NCBI RefSeq assembly: GCF_005960665.1
Contig: NZ_CP040676.1
Coordinates: 568,501 to 632,500 of the forward strand
Direction: 5' to 3'
Origin: Exiguobacterium mexicanum
GTDB lineage: Bacteria; Bacillota; Bacilli; Exiguobacteriales; Exiguobacteriaceae
DNA length: 64,000 nt
This document shows positions 32,025 through 64,000 of the stretch, in pieces. A model generated the notes under the pieces. That model saw only the letters and a list, made by a program, of their open reading frames with translations, made no database searches and was not told the DNA's origin. Numbering within the stretch: position 1 is the first letter of the stretch; every line of letters starts with the position of its first letter. The position numbers and the translations under genes were made by a program.

Positions 32025-34346
32025 TTATTCTTGATACGTCTTCAATACTTCTTGGAGCGGAATCTGATCGATCTTGCGACGGCTGATGAACGTGCTTGCA
32101 AAGAAGAGGAGCGTCACCGCACCCAGTGTATAAAGCAGATAAATCCACTCGAACTCGAGCGGCAAGACGAGTCCATAATCTTCCGCGAACACGACGATGA
32201 TGACCCGCAAGATGACGAGGGCGATCGGGATGCTGAGCAGGGCCGAGATGAGCGCGTAGATGAAGTAGCTATTGAGAATCATCGAGCGGACCTCGCGCCG
32301 GTCGTAGCCCATCACTTTCAAGAGCGAGATGACGTAATAATTTTTCTCGACCGTGAGTGCGGTCAAGACGAACAGGATGCTGAAGGCGATCAAGGCCGAT
32401 CCGCCGATCATGACGTTCATCATCAAGTTCATGTACTCATTGATCGATTGGGACTGCTCAATCAGACCGCTTCGTGAGATGACCGTCAGATAGTCCGTCT
32501 CGTCCGGCCGTTCGGTCGCATAAATCCCGTTGAACAAATCACGTGTCGTCCCGCCCGATAATTGTTCGCTGAGCGTTGCCCGAGGCAGGTAGACGACATC
32601 GCCCGCATATTCGTCGGCGATACCTCCGATCGGGTACGACAACGTCTCGTTGTCGAGTTCGATGTCAAGCGTGTCCCCGGTCTCGAGGCCGAGCTTCAAG
32701 GCGAGTGAGGCGTTGACGATGATCTCATCCGCTTTCGGTACCAGTTCGTTCCCGTCTTCGTCTTCGAGAGGGTAGAGTGTGTTCGTCGCATCGAGCCCTT
32801 TCAACGTGACAAGGTTGTCTTGAGCGAAGGCGAACGGGTAGGTGAGGAACGGCTCTTGTCCATCTTCGAGCACGGGTTGCGTCGTCGTGTACGCCTCATA
32901 TTCATAGTCGGCCTCGTTCAACTCGCCGACCGTCATCCGGTCGACCGCCCCGTTCATCATGAGGGCGAAGACGATGAGGAGCGTCGAGAACAGGATACCG
33001 AAAAAGAAGATGATGAAGCTACCCGTGCTTTTGACGGCGTATAAATATTTGAATTTCGTCTTGCCGCGGGCGTTCCGGAGCAGACGGCTGACGATGCGGC
33101 TCAGTCGATTGAGTGAGGCGTTGTCTCGAGGCGACAGCAAAGCGAGAACGCTCTCGCCCATGATTTTATAGATGACGGCTCCCGCCACGAGCGCGAAGAA
33201 CAGGAGCGGGGCGAAGACGGCCGTGAGAAAGACGAGCGGGCTTTGGGCGATGGTGATGGACGGCAATAGATAGAAATCGAGGTAAAGGTTTTTGAGCGGC
33301 TCGGCGAAGTAGAGCCCGAGGAAATAGCCGATGACGAGCATGAGCGTCGCGAACAACAAGATGAAGACTAGGTACGGGACCGCGATTTGGCGGCGGTTGT
33401 AGCCAATCGCTTTCAAGAGCCCGATTTGTCCGCGCTCGGCCTCGAGCATGTTCGAAATCAGGATGGCGACGATGATGACGGCAATCGAGACGATGAACAG
33501 GCTCAAGCCGAGCGCCATCGCTTTACCAGATGAGATCTCGCTATAGATGGCGCCGCTGCGCATGATGTTTTCCGTTTCCATGACCGAGATGACGAACGGG
33601 AGCTCGACGTCGGTCACGACCGTCCCGTCAGTGACACCGGCAAGGCGGAACGATTCGGTTCCAATCACCTCGTCGTAGGCGGCGTCCGTCATCAAAAGGA
33701 GTGTCTGCGTGCCGGGATCCAAATTGAAGAAGTTCTCATCAAACAGCGGGAGCGTGTAGTCCGGGAACAAGACGAATCCGCTCACCGTGAAAGGGGTACC
33801 GAGGTCGAGCGAATCACCGATTTCAATCCCGTTCTTTTCGGCGTATTTCGCATTGATGGCGATCTCATCGTTTTGCTCAGGCCGCTTGCCAGCCTCGAGA
33901 TAAGACACGTTGATCGTGTCCGCTTCTTTCAAGACGAGTCCGCGGTGTTCGCTCGAGCCGAACGGGTAGGTCAAAAGCTTCGAGGCGCGGAGCTCAAGCG
34001 TCGCGCCGTCCATCTCGCCCTCGACGGCGTCGATGCGTGCCGCGATCAAGTCATCGAACGCCGCCTCGTCGACACGTCGCAAGTCCGAGAGCGTGTAGCG
34101 GCCGGAGGCGATGAAGTCCGCCAACTCAGGCAAGGCCGCCTCTTCTTCCGTGACCCGGTTCAGCATCTCGACGGCAAAATCCTCTTGATTCGATGAGGCG
34201 AGATACTCCTCGGTCGGCACTTCGATGCCGCTGATGCCATAAAACATCATCGTATACGTGAGCGAGCTCATGACGATGATGACGGCGATGGCAAGGAGCT
34301 GCATCCATTTGCCAGCGAGCGTCTTCCATACGTTTTTATACAGCAT
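32025..34346 (-). CDS. FtsX/MacB-type ABC transporter permease
   Basis: A 773-residue membrane protein. An N-terminal helix and large extracytoplasmic domain (about 40-275) are followed by the first three-helix FtsX block (about 285-405), another helix (about 440-460), a second extracytoplasmic domain (about 470-640) and the last three-helix block (about 645-765). This is the long fused form with two FtsX domains. ATG at 34346 has GGGGGTG upstream; a GTG at 34355 overlaps the ATPase stop as GTGA and could be used instead. It is encoded directly after its ATPase partner. Substrate is unknown; peptides or lipoproteins are typical for the class. Confidence 0.9.
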   Translation of the reverse strand: MLYKNVWKTLAGKWMQLLAIAVIIVMSSLTYTMMFYGISGIEVPTEEYLASSNQEDFAVEMLNRVTEEEAALPELADFIASGRYTLSDLRRVDEAAFDDLIAARIDAVEGEMDGATLELRASKLLTYPFGSSEHRGLVLKEADTINVSYLEAGKRPEQNDEIAINAKYAEKNGIEIGDSLDLGTPFTVSGFVLFPDYTLPLFDENFFNLDPGTQTLLLMTDAAYDEVIGTESFRLAGVTDGTVVTDVELPFVISVMETENIMRSGAIYSEISSGKAMALGLSLFIVSIAVIIVAILISNMLEAERGQIGLLKAIGYNRRQIAVPYLVFILLFATLMLVIGYFLGLYFAEPLKNLYLDFYLLPSITIAQSPLVFLTAVFAPLLFFALVAGAVIYKIMGESVLALLSPRDNASLNRLSRIVSRLLRNARGKTKFKYLYAVKSTGSFIIFFFGILFSTLLIVFALMMNGAVDRMTVGELNEADYEYEAYTTTQPVLEDGQEPFLTYPFAFAQDNLVTLKGLDATNTLYPLEDEDGNELVPKADEIIVNASLALKLGLETGDTLDIELDNETLSYPIGGIADEYAGDVVYLPRATLSEQLSGGTTRDLFNGIYATERPDETDYLTVISRSGLIEQSQSINEYMNLMMNVMIGGSALIAFSILFVLTALTVEKNYYVISLLKVMGYDRREVRSMILNSYFIYALISALLSIPIALVILRVIIVVFAEDYGLVLPLEFEWIYLLYTLGAVTLLFFASTFISRRKIDQIPLQEVLKTYQE

Positions 34347-34351
34347 CTGTC

Positions 34352-35050
34352 TCACCCCCAGTGGATGTCGCGAGCGGCTTTTCGGACCGGGTTGTGCGTA
34401 TACTCCACGATCCGTCCCGAGTTCATTTTGATGACGTCATCGGCCATCTCACTGATGCCCGTGTTGTGCGTGATGACGACGACCGTCTTGTTGTACGTCT
34501 CGTTCAAGCGCTCGAGTAGTTCGAGCACCCGTTTTGAATTGTCCTCATCGAGCGAGCCCGTCGGTTCGTCGCAGAAGATGATGGACGGATTTTTGGCGAG
34601 ACTCCGGGCGACCGAGACGCGTTGTTGTTCGCCGCCCGACAATTGGTACGGGTATTTGTCGCGGGCAGCCGCTAACCCGACTTGATTCAACAACTCTTCG
34701 ATTGGGAGCGGGTCGGTCGATAAATCGGCCCCGATTTGAACGTTCTCGTAGACGGTCAAGTTTTGGAGTAGATTATATTGTTGAAAGATGAAGCCGAGAT
34801 GGTCGCGTCGAAACGCTGTCATCTGCTCGGACGATAAGTCCGTCAAGACGGTGTCACCGAACGTGATCGTCCCGGACGTCACCGTGTCGAGGCCACTGAT
34901 GACGTTCAACAGCGTACTCTTGCCGCTCCCGCTCGGGCCGAGGATGACGACGAAGGCCCCGTCATTGATCGTCAAATCGATGTCTTTCAACGCCGCGGTC
35001 TCGACGTCCCCGGTCTTATAGATTTTATTGACGTGCTGAATGTGAATCAT
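34352..35050 (-). CDS. MacB/LolD-type ABC transporter ATP-binding protein
   Basis: A 232-residue ATPase: Walker A GPSGSGKST near residue 38, Q-loop FQQYNLLQNLTVYENV, signature QLSGGEQQRVSVARSL, Walker B IIFCDEPTGSLD, H-loop VITHN. These are typical of the MacB/LolD group, which power mechanotransmission permeases of the FtsX type rather than import. ATG with GGAGGAATCG upstream. The stop overlaps the permease start region, so the pair is translationally coupled. Divergent from the second DegV gene. Confidence 0.94.
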   Translation of the reverse strand: MIHIQHVNKIYKTGDVETAALKDIDLTINDGAFVVILGPSGSGKSTLLNVISGLDTVTSGTITFGDTVLTDLSSEQMTAFRRDHLGFIFQQYNLLQNLTVYENVQIGADLSTDPLPIEELLNQVGLAAARDKYPYQLSGGEQQRVSVARSLAKNPSIIFCDEPTGSLDEDNSKRVLELLERLNETYNKTVVVITHNTGISEMADDVIKMNSGRIVEYTHNPVRKAARDIHWG

Positions 35051-59586: not shown

Positions 59587-59913
59587 ATGGCACAATCAGC
59601 TGGAAGCATCGCCTTGACGGAAGCGGTTTATTACATTTTACTGTCGCTACAAATTCCTAGACACGGATACGGCATCATGCAGTTTGTACAAGAATTGAGC
59701 CACGATCGCGTTCAATTGGCGGCGGGGACCTTGTATGGGGCACTCAGCAGCCTGGTAGAAAAGGGATGGATTGAGGCGGTCGAAGGAGCAAGCGGACGAA
59801 AGAAGGAGTATGTCATCACCATAGATGGACAATCAGTGCTCGAAGCCGAACTTGTTCGCCTTGAAGAGCTCGTCGCAAACGGGAAACAGTGGATTGGAGC
59901 AAACCGATCATGA
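59587..59913 (+). CDS. PadR-family transcriptional regulator
   Basis: A 108-residue PadR winged-helix protein: LTEAVYYILLSLQIPRHGYGIMQFV, recognition region QLAAGTLYGALSSLVEKGWI, wing EGASGRKKEYVITIDGQ, and a short dimerisation helix. The ATG follows AAAGGGG. It overlaps the downstream gene (ATGA). PadR-DUF2812 pairs are common in Bacillota, where the regulator represses the pair and is thought to respond to membrane or antibiotic signals. Confidence 0.93.
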   Translation: MAQSAGSIALTEAVYYILLSLQIPRHGYGIMQFVQELSHDRVQLAAGTLYGALSSLVEKGWIEAVEGASGRKKEYVITIDGQSVLEAELVRLEELVANGKQWIGANRS

Positions 59914-60440
59914 AAACAAAAACAGTTTATCGTGTATATGTCGATTATGAAAAAGAAGAGAAATGGTTGAATAAAATGGCGGCACAAGGATGGTTTCTCG
60001 AACAATTTAAGTTAGGTCGTTATGAGTTTAGGCGGGGGAATCCGAATGAGTACACGTATCGGATTGAGTTACTTGAAGAATTGCCTAACAGCCCGAAGTC
60101 AGATGCTTACTTTGAGTTATTAGAGGAGATGGGAATTACGATTGTGGCGACCTCGTATCGTTGGATTTACTTAAAAAGACGAACCGAGGAAGGTCCGTTC
60201 CAGCTCTATTCGGATATTGATTCGAAAATTCGTCATGAAAAACGTATCTATCAACTATATAGTTTTGTGCTGTATCTCAACTTATTTGTGACATTTCTTA
60301 ATATAGCGAACGATGCCGTCCCGTTCATATGGATTTTGAATTTCACTGTAAGTGTACTGTTTATTGTATTCGTGGTGAAACAATATCGAAAACTAGTAAA
60401 GTTGAAAGAAAAACGACAGCTGGTCGAGCGTGATGTATAA
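59910..60440 (+). CDS. DUF2812 membrane protein
   Basis: A 176-residue protein: an N-terminal soluble part with the DUF2812 pattern (EEKWLNKMAAQGWFLEQFKLGRYEFRRG, YTYRIELLEE), then two membrane helices (SFVLYLNLFVTFLNI and FIWILNFTVSVLFIVFVV) at the C-terminus. It has ATGA overlap with padR. Function unknown; the soluble domain may work in partnership with PadR. Confidence 0.9.
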   Translation: MKTKTVYRVYVDYEKEEKWLNKMAAQGWFLEQFKLGRYEFRRGNPNEYTYRIELLEELPNSPKSDAYFELLEEMGITIVATSYRWIYLKRRTEEGPFQLYSDIDSKIRHEKRIYQLYSFVLYLNLFVTFLNIANDAVPFIWILNFTVSVLFIVFVVKQYRKLVKLKEKRQLVERDV

Positions 60441-60989: not shown

Positions 60990-61052
60990 GTTTTGTCTCC
61001 TCACTTGAAAAAGACTGATATATTATGAGAAGAAGGGTCAGGAGGGAATACC

Positions 61053-61733
61053 ATGCATATTTTAATCGTCGAAGACGACCGGACGATCGCATCCGGTCTC
61101 CAATATTCGCTCGAACAAGAACAATTCACGACGACGTTGTGCCATAATGTGACCGACGCCACACGTTTGATCGAACAGCAGTTACATACGATCGACCTGT
61201 GTCTATTCGACTTGTCGTTGCCGGACGGGAGCGGCTATGACTTATGTCGGCTCGTGAAGCAAAAACAGGATACGCCCGTCATCTTTTTGACGGCGTTCGA
61301 TGATGAAGTGAACGTCGTCATGGGACTCGATATGGGAGCGGACGATTACATCACGAAACCGTTCCGGGTCCGTGAACTTATCTCGCGGATTCATTCGGTG
61401 TTGCGCCGCTACCATAAACAGGTCAGCTCGCCCGTTTTGACAATCGGGTCGGTCGAAATCAACACGCAAGACGCGAAAGTCAAAAAAGATGGAAGCGAGA
61501 TCCTGTTGACAGCGCTCGAGTATCGTTTACTGCTCATCTTCGGGAAACATACGGGCCAAGTGTTATCACGGACCCAGCTGCTCGACCAGATTTGGGACAT
61601 GGGCGGGGATTTCGTGAATGACAATACGTTGACCGTCTACATCAAACGGTTACGCGAGAAGCTCGAGGATGACCCGCAGCGGCCGACGTTGATTAAGACG
61701 GTTCGCGGGATTGGCTATAAGGTGGAACGCTGA
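61053..61733 (+). CDS. OmpR/PhoB-type response regulator
   Basis: A 226-residue regulator. The receiver domain (about 1-115) has ILIVEDDR, phospho-acceptor Asp53 in CLFDLSLPDGSGY, FLTAFDDEV and ITKPFRVREL. The winged-helix output domain (about 128-226) ends VYIKRLREKLEDDPQRPTLIKTVRGIGYKVE. ATG after AGGAGGG. It is followed by its kinase and by an ABC transporter, an arrangement used for detoxification of antimicrobial peptides (BceRS-BceAB-like). The probable binding site is the GTCAC array before the transporter. Confidence 0.94.
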   Translation: MHILIVEDDRTIASGLQYSLEQEQFTTTLCHNVTDATRLIEQQLHTIDLCLFDLSLPDGSGYDLCRLVKQKQDTPVIFLTAFDDEVNVVMGLDMGADDYITKPFRVRELISRIHSVLRRYHKQVSSPVLTIGSVEINTQDAKVKKDGSEILLTALEYRLLLIFGKHTGQVLSRTQLLDQIWDMGGDFVNDNTLTVYIKRLREKLEDDPQRPTLIKTVRGIGYKVER

Positions 61734-61734
61734 T

Positions 61735-62739
61735 ATGTTGCGCAATCGAGAAATCCGTATCTATTTAGTCAGTCTGTTGCTGCTGATTGGGGTGGCTTCT
61801 ATCGTCGCAGCTTTGTTCCTATCGATGGAGGCCGTCATTCTCGTCCTCCTTTTGTCGGTTGCGTTCTTGATCGTGACATATCGGTTCACGGCGTGGCGCT
61901 ATCGGGAGATCGATCAGCTGTCGAGCTACCTGCAAGAAATCAGCAACGGTAACTATAAACTCGATTTCCGCGACAATCGTGAAGGCGAGCTCAGTCTATT
62001 GAAGAGCCAAATCTATAAAGTGACGAAGATGCTGTCCGAGCAAGGGACGCATCTCGAAGAAGACAAGCAGAAGCTGACGGATGCTATCTCCGACATTTCC
62101 CATCAGCTGAAGACCCCGCTCACCTCGATGACCGTCATGGCGGATTTGCTCAGTGACCCACGGCTGTCAGATGACAAGCGGCAAGAGTTCACGCATAACG
62201 TACAGGTGCAGCTCGAGCGGATGGAGTGGCTCGTCTCGTCACTGCTCAAGCTGTCTAAAATCGATGCCGGGACGATTCAGTTCAAACGGGAACCGGTGTC
62301 CGTCCCCGCACTCGTTCAAGCCGTGACGGAACCGATGCTCGTGCCGATTGATATTAAAATGCAACGGCTTCAGATCGCGGGTGAGGATGATGTCATGTTC
62401 GAAGGCGACTTGAAGTGGACGACCGAGGCGCTCATCAACATCTTAAAGAATTGCGTCGAACATTCACCGGAACAAGGCGAGCTGTTCATCGATTACAGCG
62501 AGAACACACTGTACACGGAAATCGTCATTCGCGACACGGGGAGCGGCATCCCCAAGCAAGACATCCCGTATATTTTCCAACGTTTTTATAAGGGTATGAA
62601 TGCGAGTGACGACAGCGTCGGCATCGGGCTCGCCATGGCCCACAGCATCATCACAAGCCAACAAGGTGAACTGACCGTACGTAGTGAACGCGGAGCTGGG
62701 ACTGCGTTTCAAATTCGATTCTACAAAGCAATCGTCTAA
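61735..62739 (+). CDS. Sensor histidine kinase with short membrane sensor
   Basis: A 334-residue kinase. Two close N-terminal membrane helices (about 8-55; LVSLLLLIGVASIVAALFLS and AVILVLLLSVAFLIVTYRF) with almost no external loop, as in intramembrane-sensing kinases that rely on an ABC permease for detection. HisKA with phospho-His in DISHQLKTPLTSM (about 123). ATPase domain with N-box ILKNCVEHSP, G1 RDTGSGIPKQD and G2 SVGIGLAMAHSII. The ATG follows the response regulator stop by one base. Confidence 0.93.
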   Translation: MLRNREIRIYLVSLLLLIGVASIVAALFLSMEAVILVLLLSVAFLIVTYRFTAWRYREIDQLSSYLQEISNGNYKLDFRDNREGELSLLKSQIYKVTKMLSEQGTHLEEDKQKLTDAISDISHQLKTPLTSMTVMADLLSDPRLSDDKRQEFTHNVQVQLERMEWLVSSLLKLSKIDAGTIQFKREPVSVPALVQAVTEPMLVPIDIKMQRLQIAGEDDVMFEGDLKWTTEALINILKNCVEHSPEQGELFIDYSENTLYTEIVIRDTGSGIPKQDIPYIFQRFYKGMNASDDSVGIGLAMAHSIITSQQGELTVRSERGAGTAFQIRFYKAIV

Positions 62740-62777
62740 GTGACGAAACAGTCACTTTCGAGTCACGGACGTGTCAC
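62740..62777 (+). promoter_or_regulatory. Four GTSAC boxes at 11-bp intervals: probable response-regulator binding array
   Basis: GTGAC (62740), GTCAC (62751), GTCAC (62762) and GTCAC (62773) start exactly 11 bases apart. This is one helical turn, the spacing typical of OmpR/PhoB dimers binding in tandem. It lies between the kinase stop and the ABC ATPase gene, about 50 bases before its start. TACACT (62789-62794) may be a -10 box lacking a good -35, as expected of an activated promoter. Confidence 0.7.
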
Positions 62778-62824
62778 ACTCGCTCGGTACACTCAAAGTA
62801 GATCAAGTACTGGAGGGTGCAACC

Positions 62825-63508
62825 ATGAATATATTAGAAGTGCAAAATTTATCAAAAGTATACGGGAAAGACGAGATGGAAGTGCGGGCGCTCGATGACG
62901 TGTCGTTCACGGTCAAAAAAGGCGAGTTCGTCTGTATCGTCGGACCGTCGGGCTCGGGAAAGTCGACGTTGTTACATTTGCTCGGCGGTGTCGACGTGCC
63001 GACGAGTGGACAGGTGTTCATCGATAACACGGATATTTACAAGTTGGACGAGACACAGCTCGCCATCTTCCGGCGTCGCCAAATCGGGTTGATTTATCAG
63101 TTTTACAACTTGATTCCGATTTTGACGGTCGAGGAGAACATTACGTTGCCGATGTTGTTGGACGAACAAAAAGTCGACGCCGCCCATTTGGAGCGCATCA
63201 TCGGCATCCTTGGACTGTCGAACCGGTTGACGCATCTGCCGAACCAACTGTCTGGCGGGCAGCAACAACGCGTCTCCATCGGTCGGGCGCTCATCAGCAA
63301 CCCGGCCATCATCTTGGCCGATGAGCCGACGGGGAACTTGGACAGTCAAAACAGTGAAGAGATTATGAGCCTCCTGAAACTGTTCAACAAGAAGTTCAAT
63401 CAGACGCTCATCATCATCACGCACGACGAACGAATCGCCTTGCAGGCCGACCGGATCATCTCGATCGAGGATGGGAAAATTGCGAAGAACGAGGTCGTCC
63501 GCTCATGA
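62825..63508 (+). CDS. ABC transporter ATP-binding protein (BceA/MacB type)
   Basis: A 227-residue ATPase: Walker A GPSGSGKST near residue 42, Q-loop YQFYNLIPILTVEENI, signature QLSGGQQQRVSIGRAL, Walker B IILADEPTGNLD, H-loop IITHD. Of the type that powers MacB- or BceB-like permeases. The ATG at 62825 has CTGGAGGGTG upstream. The stop overlaps the permease start as ATGA. Confidence 0.94.
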   Translation: MNILEVQNLSKVYGKDEMEVRALDDVSFTVKKGEFVCIVGPSGSGKSTLLHLLGGVDVPTSGQVFIDNTDIYKLDETQLAIFRRRQIGLIYQFYNLIPILTVEENITLPMLLDEQKVDAAHLERIIGILGLSNRLTHLPNQLSGGQQQRVSIGRALISNPAIILADEPTGNLDSQNSEEIMSLLKLFNKKFNQTLIIITHDERIALQADRIISIEDGKIAKNEVVRS

Positions 63509-64000
63509 ACATCATCAATAAAATGACGCTTCGCCACTTGCGCGAGAACAAGCGGCGCTCGCTCGTCACCATCATCGGGGTCATCATCTCGGTGGCGATG
63601 ATCACGGCCGTGACGACACTGGGTTCATCGTTCCTGGACTTGATGATCCGTCAAGACATCGCGGATAACGGGGAATGGCACGTCCAATACATCAACACGA
63701 ATGAGGAGCAGGTCGAGGCGATTCGGAATGATGCATCGACGAAGGACGTCATCCTATCGAGTGACGGCTATGCGACATTAACGGATTCGCAGAATGCGTA
63801 TAAACCGTACTTATACGTCCGGAACTATAACACGTCGGGGCTGAAAAACTTCCCCGTCGAGTTGACGGAGGGACGCTTGCCGAACAAAGAAGGCGAAGTC
63901 GTCATTTCCGAGGCCATCCGTCAAAATGCGCAAGTCACGTACAACATCGGGGACGAGTTGACGCTCGAGATCGGCGAGCGCATGGACGAATCGTCGGGTC
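63505..64000 (+). CDS. FtsX-type ABC permease (3' end missing)
   Basis: The first 165 codons of a permease that continues past the right edge. It starts MNIINKMTLRHLRENKRRSLVTIIGVIISVAMITAVTTLGSS, with a first helix near 20-42, then the beginning of an extracytoplasmic MacB-like domain (WHVQYINTNEEQVEAI). The ATG overlaps the ATPase stop. BceB-type permeases are about 620-670 residues; this first part does not tell whether it is BceB-like or a shorter FtsX protein. Confidence 0.9.
   Translation, partial: MNIINKMTLRHLRENKRRSLVTIIGVIISVAMITAVTTLGSSFLDLMIRQDIADNGEWHVQYINTNEEQVEAIRNDASTKDVILSSDGYATLTDSQNAYKPYLYVRNYNTSGLKNFPVELTEGRLPNKEGEVVISEAIRQNAQVTYNIGDELTLEIGERMDESSG

Follow-up and report, generated by a model that had tools for sequence, protein, structure and literature searches.

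What reads an array of four GTCAC-like boxes lying between a sensor kinase gene and an ABC transporter gene, and which way do the boxes face? In the window (the whole stretch of 64,000 nucleotides of Exiguobacterium mexicanum DNA that was analysed), positions 62740-62777 read GTGAC-GAAACA-GTCAC-TTTCGA-GTCAC-GGACGT-GTCAC, the box starts being exactly 11 bp apart. A first-pass annotation had described four GTSAC boxes with an exact 11-bp period before an ABC ATPase gene, and the sequence confirms the period and the place (starts at 62740, 62751, 62762 and 62773). The positions and letters of that description stand, but its degenerate spelling hides that the GTGAC of box 1 is the reverse complement of GTCAC.

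The array and its gene block

The four boxes lie within the 85 bp that separate the kinase gene from the ATPase gene, the first of them directly after the kinase stop codon. Box 1 (62740..62744) reads GTGAC on the plus strand and GTCAC on the minus strand, and comparison with its relatives marks it as an inverted half-site. Boxes 2 (62751..62755), 3 (62762..62766, the most invariant of the four) and 4 (62773..62777) read GTCAC on the plus strand, and box 2 pairs with box 1 in the inverted repeat AAGTGAC-N6-GTCACTT (62738-62757). The array is followed on the same strand by TACACT (62788..62793), a probable −10 element 10 nt 3' of box 4, and by GGAGGG (62812..62817), the ribosome-binding site ahead of the ATG of the ATPase gene, whose leader is kept in 11 orthologues. 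A promoter scan found no sigma-70-like −35/−10 pair on the array strand.

All genes of the block lie on the plus strand. The presumed binder is an OmpR-family response regulator of 226 aa (61053..61733; Pfam Response_reg and Trans_reg_C) with the recognition helix NDNTLTVYIKRLREKLE, as placed by a helix alignment. It is followed by a sensor histidine kinase of 334 aa (61735..62739; HisKA, HATPase_c), in which the hydropathy profile has a single hydrophobic block, at residues 5-54, with no space for a large outside sensor. The kinase matches BceS at E 2.2e-11 over residues 15-329, and a CovS/VicK-like kinase scores better (5e-28). The first gene 3' of the array encodes an ABC transporter ATPase of 227 aa (62825..63508; ABC_tran), and the next an FtsX/MacB_PCD permease that starts in the window (63505..63999) and extends past its end (L033:4506-7076), to 856 aa in all. 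This permease contains the FtsX domain twice together with MacB_PCD, includes two extended non-hydrophobic regions, one of about 225 aa and one of about 235 aa, and matches PsdB only at E 0.0027, over residues 735-853. Upstream of the regulator-kinase operon, an alignment of 11 orthologues shows by eye an extended −10 element, TGaTATATT (61016..61024, plus strand); the same alignment, also by eye, has no GTCAC-type boxes before this operon, and hence no sign of autoregulation through the motif.

Two other places in the window deserve mention. A second ATPase is paired with a 776-aa FtsX permease at 32025-35050 on the minus strand, without the exact three-box array, and a PadR-type regulator gene followed by one for a DUF2812 protein (59587-60440) is likely to be a small regulatory pair.

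Chance controls and survey of related loci

The exact three-box pattern matches the window twice, both times at the array and with 0 mismatches. When up to two mismatches are allowed, shuffled windows give a mean of 0.56 matches, and because 14 of 100 shuffles reach two or more, the count in the window alone is not striking at this loose setting. In the 2.69-Mb genome of the organism, the exact pattern occurs at the array only and the reversed-pattern control gives 0 matches; with up to two mismatches, three GTCAC boxes yield eight matches at seven places (reversed-pattern control, one), namely two placements on the array, one of them matched also on the reverse strand, and five other places.

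Conservation is a stronger test than such pattern counts. An orthologous kinase, with 82-100% identity, is found in 11 of 19 genomes of the genus, and all 11 loci carry the four boxes at the same spacing, with GTGAC as box 1; a record of an Exiguobacterium sp. (L066) has the same locus with an ATPase 97.8% identical. Across the 11 orthologues, all 20 box columns are invariant, whereas change is seen in 9 of 18 columns of the spacers and, in the ATPase gene, in 68 of 81 fourfold-degenerate columns, which shows that the boxes are under selection.

The survey beyond the genus brought the total to 79 loci chosen by protein similarity, that is, the 11 of the genus, 19 and 20 from a permease search and 29 from an ATPase search. 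The permease search covered 398 genomes of the class, with some match, mostly weak, in 315 of them; the 19 come from 30 loci, the remaining 11 of which (L156-L166) duplicate the genus set, and the 20 are upstream pieces hand-picked from the next rows. The ATPase search covered 391 genomes from the class to which an Oscillospiraceae MAG belongs (Clostridia, to judge by the record name), with matches at E up to 1e-88 in 102 of the 391. The 29 belong to its best 30 loci, with L208 dropped because its genome had been reached through a pattern match; L206, L207 and L209-L213 were left out on the same ground. The centre of this Clostridia-type class, G398, was itself reached through a pattern match, and the ATPases read there are the best-scoring ones only. 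Four genus operators are letter-identical to the pattern matches L066 or L131, with no further overlap between the two sets.

Each locus was scored, within 260 bp of the ATPase gene, against a grid of four boxes and a −10 element, one-base gap shifts being allowed at a small penalty. A score of at least 18 was reached by 72 of the 79 loci and by 1 of 1580 dinucleotide shuffles (at 19.0), and a score of at least 20 by 61 of the 79 and by 0 of 1580; these scores are not fully independent, because the first loci were already known when the grid consensus was drawn up, and because it has GTGAC for box 1 and TATAAT for the −10 built in. Eleven positives with diverged boxes (L191-L198, L203-L205) score just 18-19, no better than the best shuffle; their position counts for as much as their letters. 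A regular expression written from the operators, when run over the reverse strands of this DNA (140,262 bp), had 0 matches.

Overall, the operator is carried by 78 of the 79 loci, a count that, like all counts over these loci, is not independent of their kinship by descent. It stands directly before the ATPase gene in 72 loci and before an additional gene ahead of the ATPase gene in six (L186, L188 and L318-L321, the latter covering L176, L178, L184 and L185), whereas L233 keeps half an operator, consisting of boxes 3-4 and the −10 only. In 6/6 cases the intervening gene is VanZ-like (PF04892; L186:1250-2206 (-), L188:1136-2077 (-), L318:723-1679 (-), L319:2128-3084, L320:2130-3086 and L321:717-1652 (-)), which hints at cell-envelope antibiotic resistance, to glycopeptides or peptide antibiotics. 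The array is thus conserved together with the module, in agreement with the tie between two-component system and transporter that had been drawn from the sequence of this locus.

A scan of public genomes with a pattern whose first box could be GTGAC or GTCAC returned at least 117 loci, and a cognate ATPase was defined by at least 60% identity and a start within 250 bp downstream. Fifteen of these matches precede a cognate ATPase, and 15/15 have GTGAC as the first box and, downstream of box 4 at a distance of exactly 10 nt, TAnnnT; the other 102 matches listed comprise 89 with GTCAC first, many of them plain tandem repeats, and 13 with GTGAC first (Fisher p 1.2e-11). By name, 11 of the 15 are one Exiguobacterium, two Paenibacillus, seven Oscillospiraceae or Clostridia and one Anaerolineaceae MAG, the last of which may be mis-binned. 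The existence of simple 11-bp GTCAC tandem repeats in other genomes (L042, L073 and L082, for example) could suggest that the array is a chance or structural repeat devoid of a regulatory role; given its presence in nearly all related loci, boxes that are frozen while the spacers change, and the result that 0 of the 89 GTCAC-first matches listed precede a cognate ATPase, we attach a negligible probability to this reading. Taken together, these data suggest that the array is a genuine and deeply conserved regulatory switch ahead of a gene for a membrane transporter.

In unrelated genomes, plain tandem repeats of GTCAC with an 11-bp period (L042, L043, L062, L073, L080, L082, L141) are a separate phenomenon; three of them, L042, L043 and L062, lie in one Dehalococcoidia chromosome. 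Bacteroidales-type loci (L041, L109-L111, L129) carry a GTGAC-first four-box array with similar flanks and no related ATPase nearby, as judged from the open reading frames listed for L109 and L129; in L109 the array is at 349-386, and the first long forward open reading frame after it (936-1460) is of UpxY/NusG type by eye.

Geometry of the operator and orientation of the boxes

The spacing was compared across 67 distinct operators, drawn from Bacilli and from a Clostridia-type class. Box 1 is separated from box 2, and box 3 from box 4, by 6 bp in 67/67, and gap 2-3 is 7 bp in 37 operators and 6 bp in 30, so that the exact 11-bp period, which had been taken as the key feature of the array, is not essential. 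The distance from box 4 to the −10 element is 10 in all 67 operators, and all 67 have TAnnnT, in a grid scan that favours a TATAAT-like match.

The boxes themselves differ in where they tolerate change. Box 3 is GTCAC almost throughout. Boxes 2 and 4 vary most at their last base (C38 T19 G10 and C25 T37 G5, respectively), and to some degree at the third. In box 1, by contrast, the most variable base is the first (G50 A13 C4), followed by T, then G63 T4, A and C, and T[GT]AC with a 6-bp gap to box 2 is present in 67/67 operators. The third base is C in 0/67; when box 1 was left unscored in anchoring, 68 of 73 loci had nTGAC and 0 had GTCAC, with C at the third base in 0/73. With C absent from its third base and most of its variation at the first, box 1 amounts to a mirrored GTCAn, so that boxes 1-2 form an inverted repeat and the direct order is confined to boxes 2-4. 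As a point against the pairing of the first two boxes, their covariation is not strict, box 2 often being GTAAT or GTTAT opposite GTGAC.

A uniform head-to-tail arrangement, in which tandem dimers of the OmpR/PhoB type would occupy every one of the four boxes and box 1 would be a weak variant of GTCAC, would be in keeping with the 11-bp pitch of about one helical turn, with the 4/5 letters common to the boxes, and with the statement, in PMC3128592, that direct repeats are the usual targets of this family. However, the base composition of box 1 is that expected of a mirrored site, CTTAC stands at box 1 opposite GTAAG in three distant loci (L203-L205), and CTTAC-N6-GTAAG recurs in eight further loci (L249-L256). 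We accordingly consider the uniform head-to-tail arrangement unlikely; of the original proposal of head-to-tail OmpR-type dimers, the direct order of boxes 2-4 survives and that of box 1 does not.

An inverted repeat could also act as RNA, boxes 1-2 being a hairpin that serves as attenuator or terminator of the regulator-kinase transcript, with protein bound at boxes 3-4 only. AAGTGAC-N6-GTCACTT does fold into a 7-bp stem, the palindrome at boxes 1-2 is longer in L203-L205, and pairing outside the core exceeds the expected 25% (38/67 at the second position out and 27/67 at the first). Nevertheless, pairing is not at all constant beyond the 5-bp core, the z-score of the 97-nt fold is only -1.20, with 27 of 200 shuffles folding as well, and no terminator-like site is called at the array on the same strand. 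Moreover, the fixed 6-bp loop and the phase with boxes 3-4 and the −10 suit a protein site, and a hairpin function is in our view quite improbable.

Related operators and a model of activation

Four half-sites at a pitch of one turn recall the PhoP boxes of Bacillus subtilis, which are four TTAACA-like direct repeats with a pitch of about 11 bp, located near −20 to −60, and thus in the same place relative to the −10. Assignment to the PhoP boxes was rejected, the core being GTCAC rather than TTAACA-like and box 1 being inverted. The contrast with PhoP made in the first-pass annotation is therefore fair, but a nearer precedent is the inverted repeat of GraR (PMC3128592).

GraR of Staphylococcus aureus acts on AAGTGACA-N4-TGTCATTT, at the end of graS and before vraFG, and VirR and BceR have been shown to bind inverted repeats (PMC3128592). 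The GraR operator (vraFG, mprF, dlt) is near-identical to AAGTGAC-N6-GTCACTT, and both are located at the end of a kinase gene. In L. paracasei, PsdR and ApsR share the consensus AnnTTACnAnnnnGTnAG with the core TNAC-N6-GTNA (PMC10858260). This core is common to Bce/Psd/Aps-type operators and fits the present array (TGAC-GAAACA-GTCA at 62741-62754), which adds two downstream half-sites to its TGAC/GTCA core. The Bce/Gra-type operator is also defined by a distal half-site, some two turns beyond its inverted repeat, and BceR-type operators of B. subtilis have a main-plus-secondary-site layout. Box 4 starts 22 bp after the start of box 2 here, and 22 or 23 bp in the relatives.

Comparison loci with the inverted repeat fit this pattern in part. 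In the Gra-type loci L287-L291 (apparently staphylococci) and L295, a half-site follows box 2 at 21 nt, near the place of box 4 here, and box 3 is missing, with a further match seen in L288, L289 and L295; no half-site stands at +21 in the two Paenibacillus-type sites L292 and L293, so that 6/8 comparison loci have one. The ATPases of L287-L291 are 39.6-43.9% identical to the one here, and in L295 the inverted repeat precedes a regulator gene rather than an ATPase gene. The bare inverted repeat is a weak marker, because it is found in 47 of 398 genomes against 20 of 398 for the reversed control, and because 20 of the 42 inverted-repeat loci that were read have no related gene, compared with 14 that belong to this module and 8 with related two-component/ABC genes (L287-L293, L295).

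Over its whole length the regulator is 31-33% identical to the Gra-type regulators, and its recognition helix, NDNTLTVYIKRLREKL compared with SDNTLTVNVNRLRKKL in the Gra type, is GraR-like by sequence. A helix of the form NTL[TS]V...RLR is present in 17/17 module regulators aligned, NTLTV in 5/5 aligned of the six Gra-type regulators (as SDNTLTVNVNRLRKKL or NDNTLTVNITRLRHKL), and NTL[TS]V in 0/10 other OmpR-type regulators of the same genome; the alignment took in the regulators selected except those of L105 and L290. In a third group (L249-L256), the four-box array precedes the ATPase gene in 0/8 loci, and CTTAC-N6-GTAAG is found higher up in 8/8, before an extra gene preceding the ATPase gene (a gene order read in L249 alone); the permease of L249 has 662 aa, and the two regulators aligned have the helix DENTLSVYIKRLRDKV. 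From the module, the Gra-type loci and this group, it follows that helix and repeat go together in three groups.

The resemblance does not extend to the transporter. Bce-type permeases are about 650 aa long and have ten helices and a single large extracellular loop, compared with the 856 aa, duplicated FtsX and MacB_PCD of the protein here. YsaB, for example, has ten helices and a 233-aa loop (PMC7438565). The kinase of a Bce-type module is a short intramembrane sensor with two helices, to be set beside the 334 aa, the single hydrophobic block and the matches to BceS and to a CovS/VicK-like kinase given above. Since the permease, by its length, its domains and its marginal match to PsdB, is not of the Bce type, assignment to a Bce-type transporter module was rejected.

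Given the sequence, spacing and orientation of the boxes, the fixed distance to the −10, the deep conservation with the module and the GraR-like recognition helix, the array is very probably the operator through which the neighbouring response regulator activates transcription, a Bce/Gra-type variant in which an inverted pair and a direct pair in the −35 place would drive the ABC transporter operon. This makes the switch, as far as sequence can tell, a four-part version of one from the peptide-resistance systems of staphylococci and relatives. No description of this four-box operator was found among the titles and abstract beginnings that the literature searches listed.

Under this model, the kinase, or the kinase together with the transporter, would sense envelope stress, for which antimicrobial peptides are a plausible inducer, and would phosphorylate the regulator in response. 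Two regulator dimers would then bind cooperatively, at the inverted pair 1-2 first and at boxes 3-4 next, and the direct pair 3-4 would reach up to the −35 region and substitute for it in a promoter that has a −10 only. The complex of regulator and DNA would recruit RNA polymerase, and ATPase and permease would be made. To judge by the −10, transcription would start near 62800, which places the boxes at about −60 to −23. Since the regulator-kinase operon is preceded by a separate extended −10, likewise conserved, and by no boxes that the eye can see, we propose that the regulator-kinase pair is constitutive and the transporter is made on demand.

A broader proposal, for which we see about even odds, is that one OmpR-family regulator would use both geometries on one promoter, the inverted pair nucleating binding and the direct pair replacing the −35. 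Under the same proposal, this layout would have persisted in Bacilli, in Clostridia and in at least one Anaerolineaceae MAG, and would mark a large and little-characterised resistance module, made up of a two-component system and an FtsX transporter, which has its DNA code in common with GraR and BceR, but not the Bce permease. The operator can be written as a one-line DNA signature, nTGAC-N6-GTNAn-N6/7-GTCAC-N6-GTNAn-N10-TAnnnT, which can help to locate this transporter module, together with its promoter, in the genomes of Gram-positive bacteria. The shared DNA code links this module to known peptide-sensing systems, and the mixed inverted and direct layout raises the question of how dimers of OmpR-family regulators pack on DNA.
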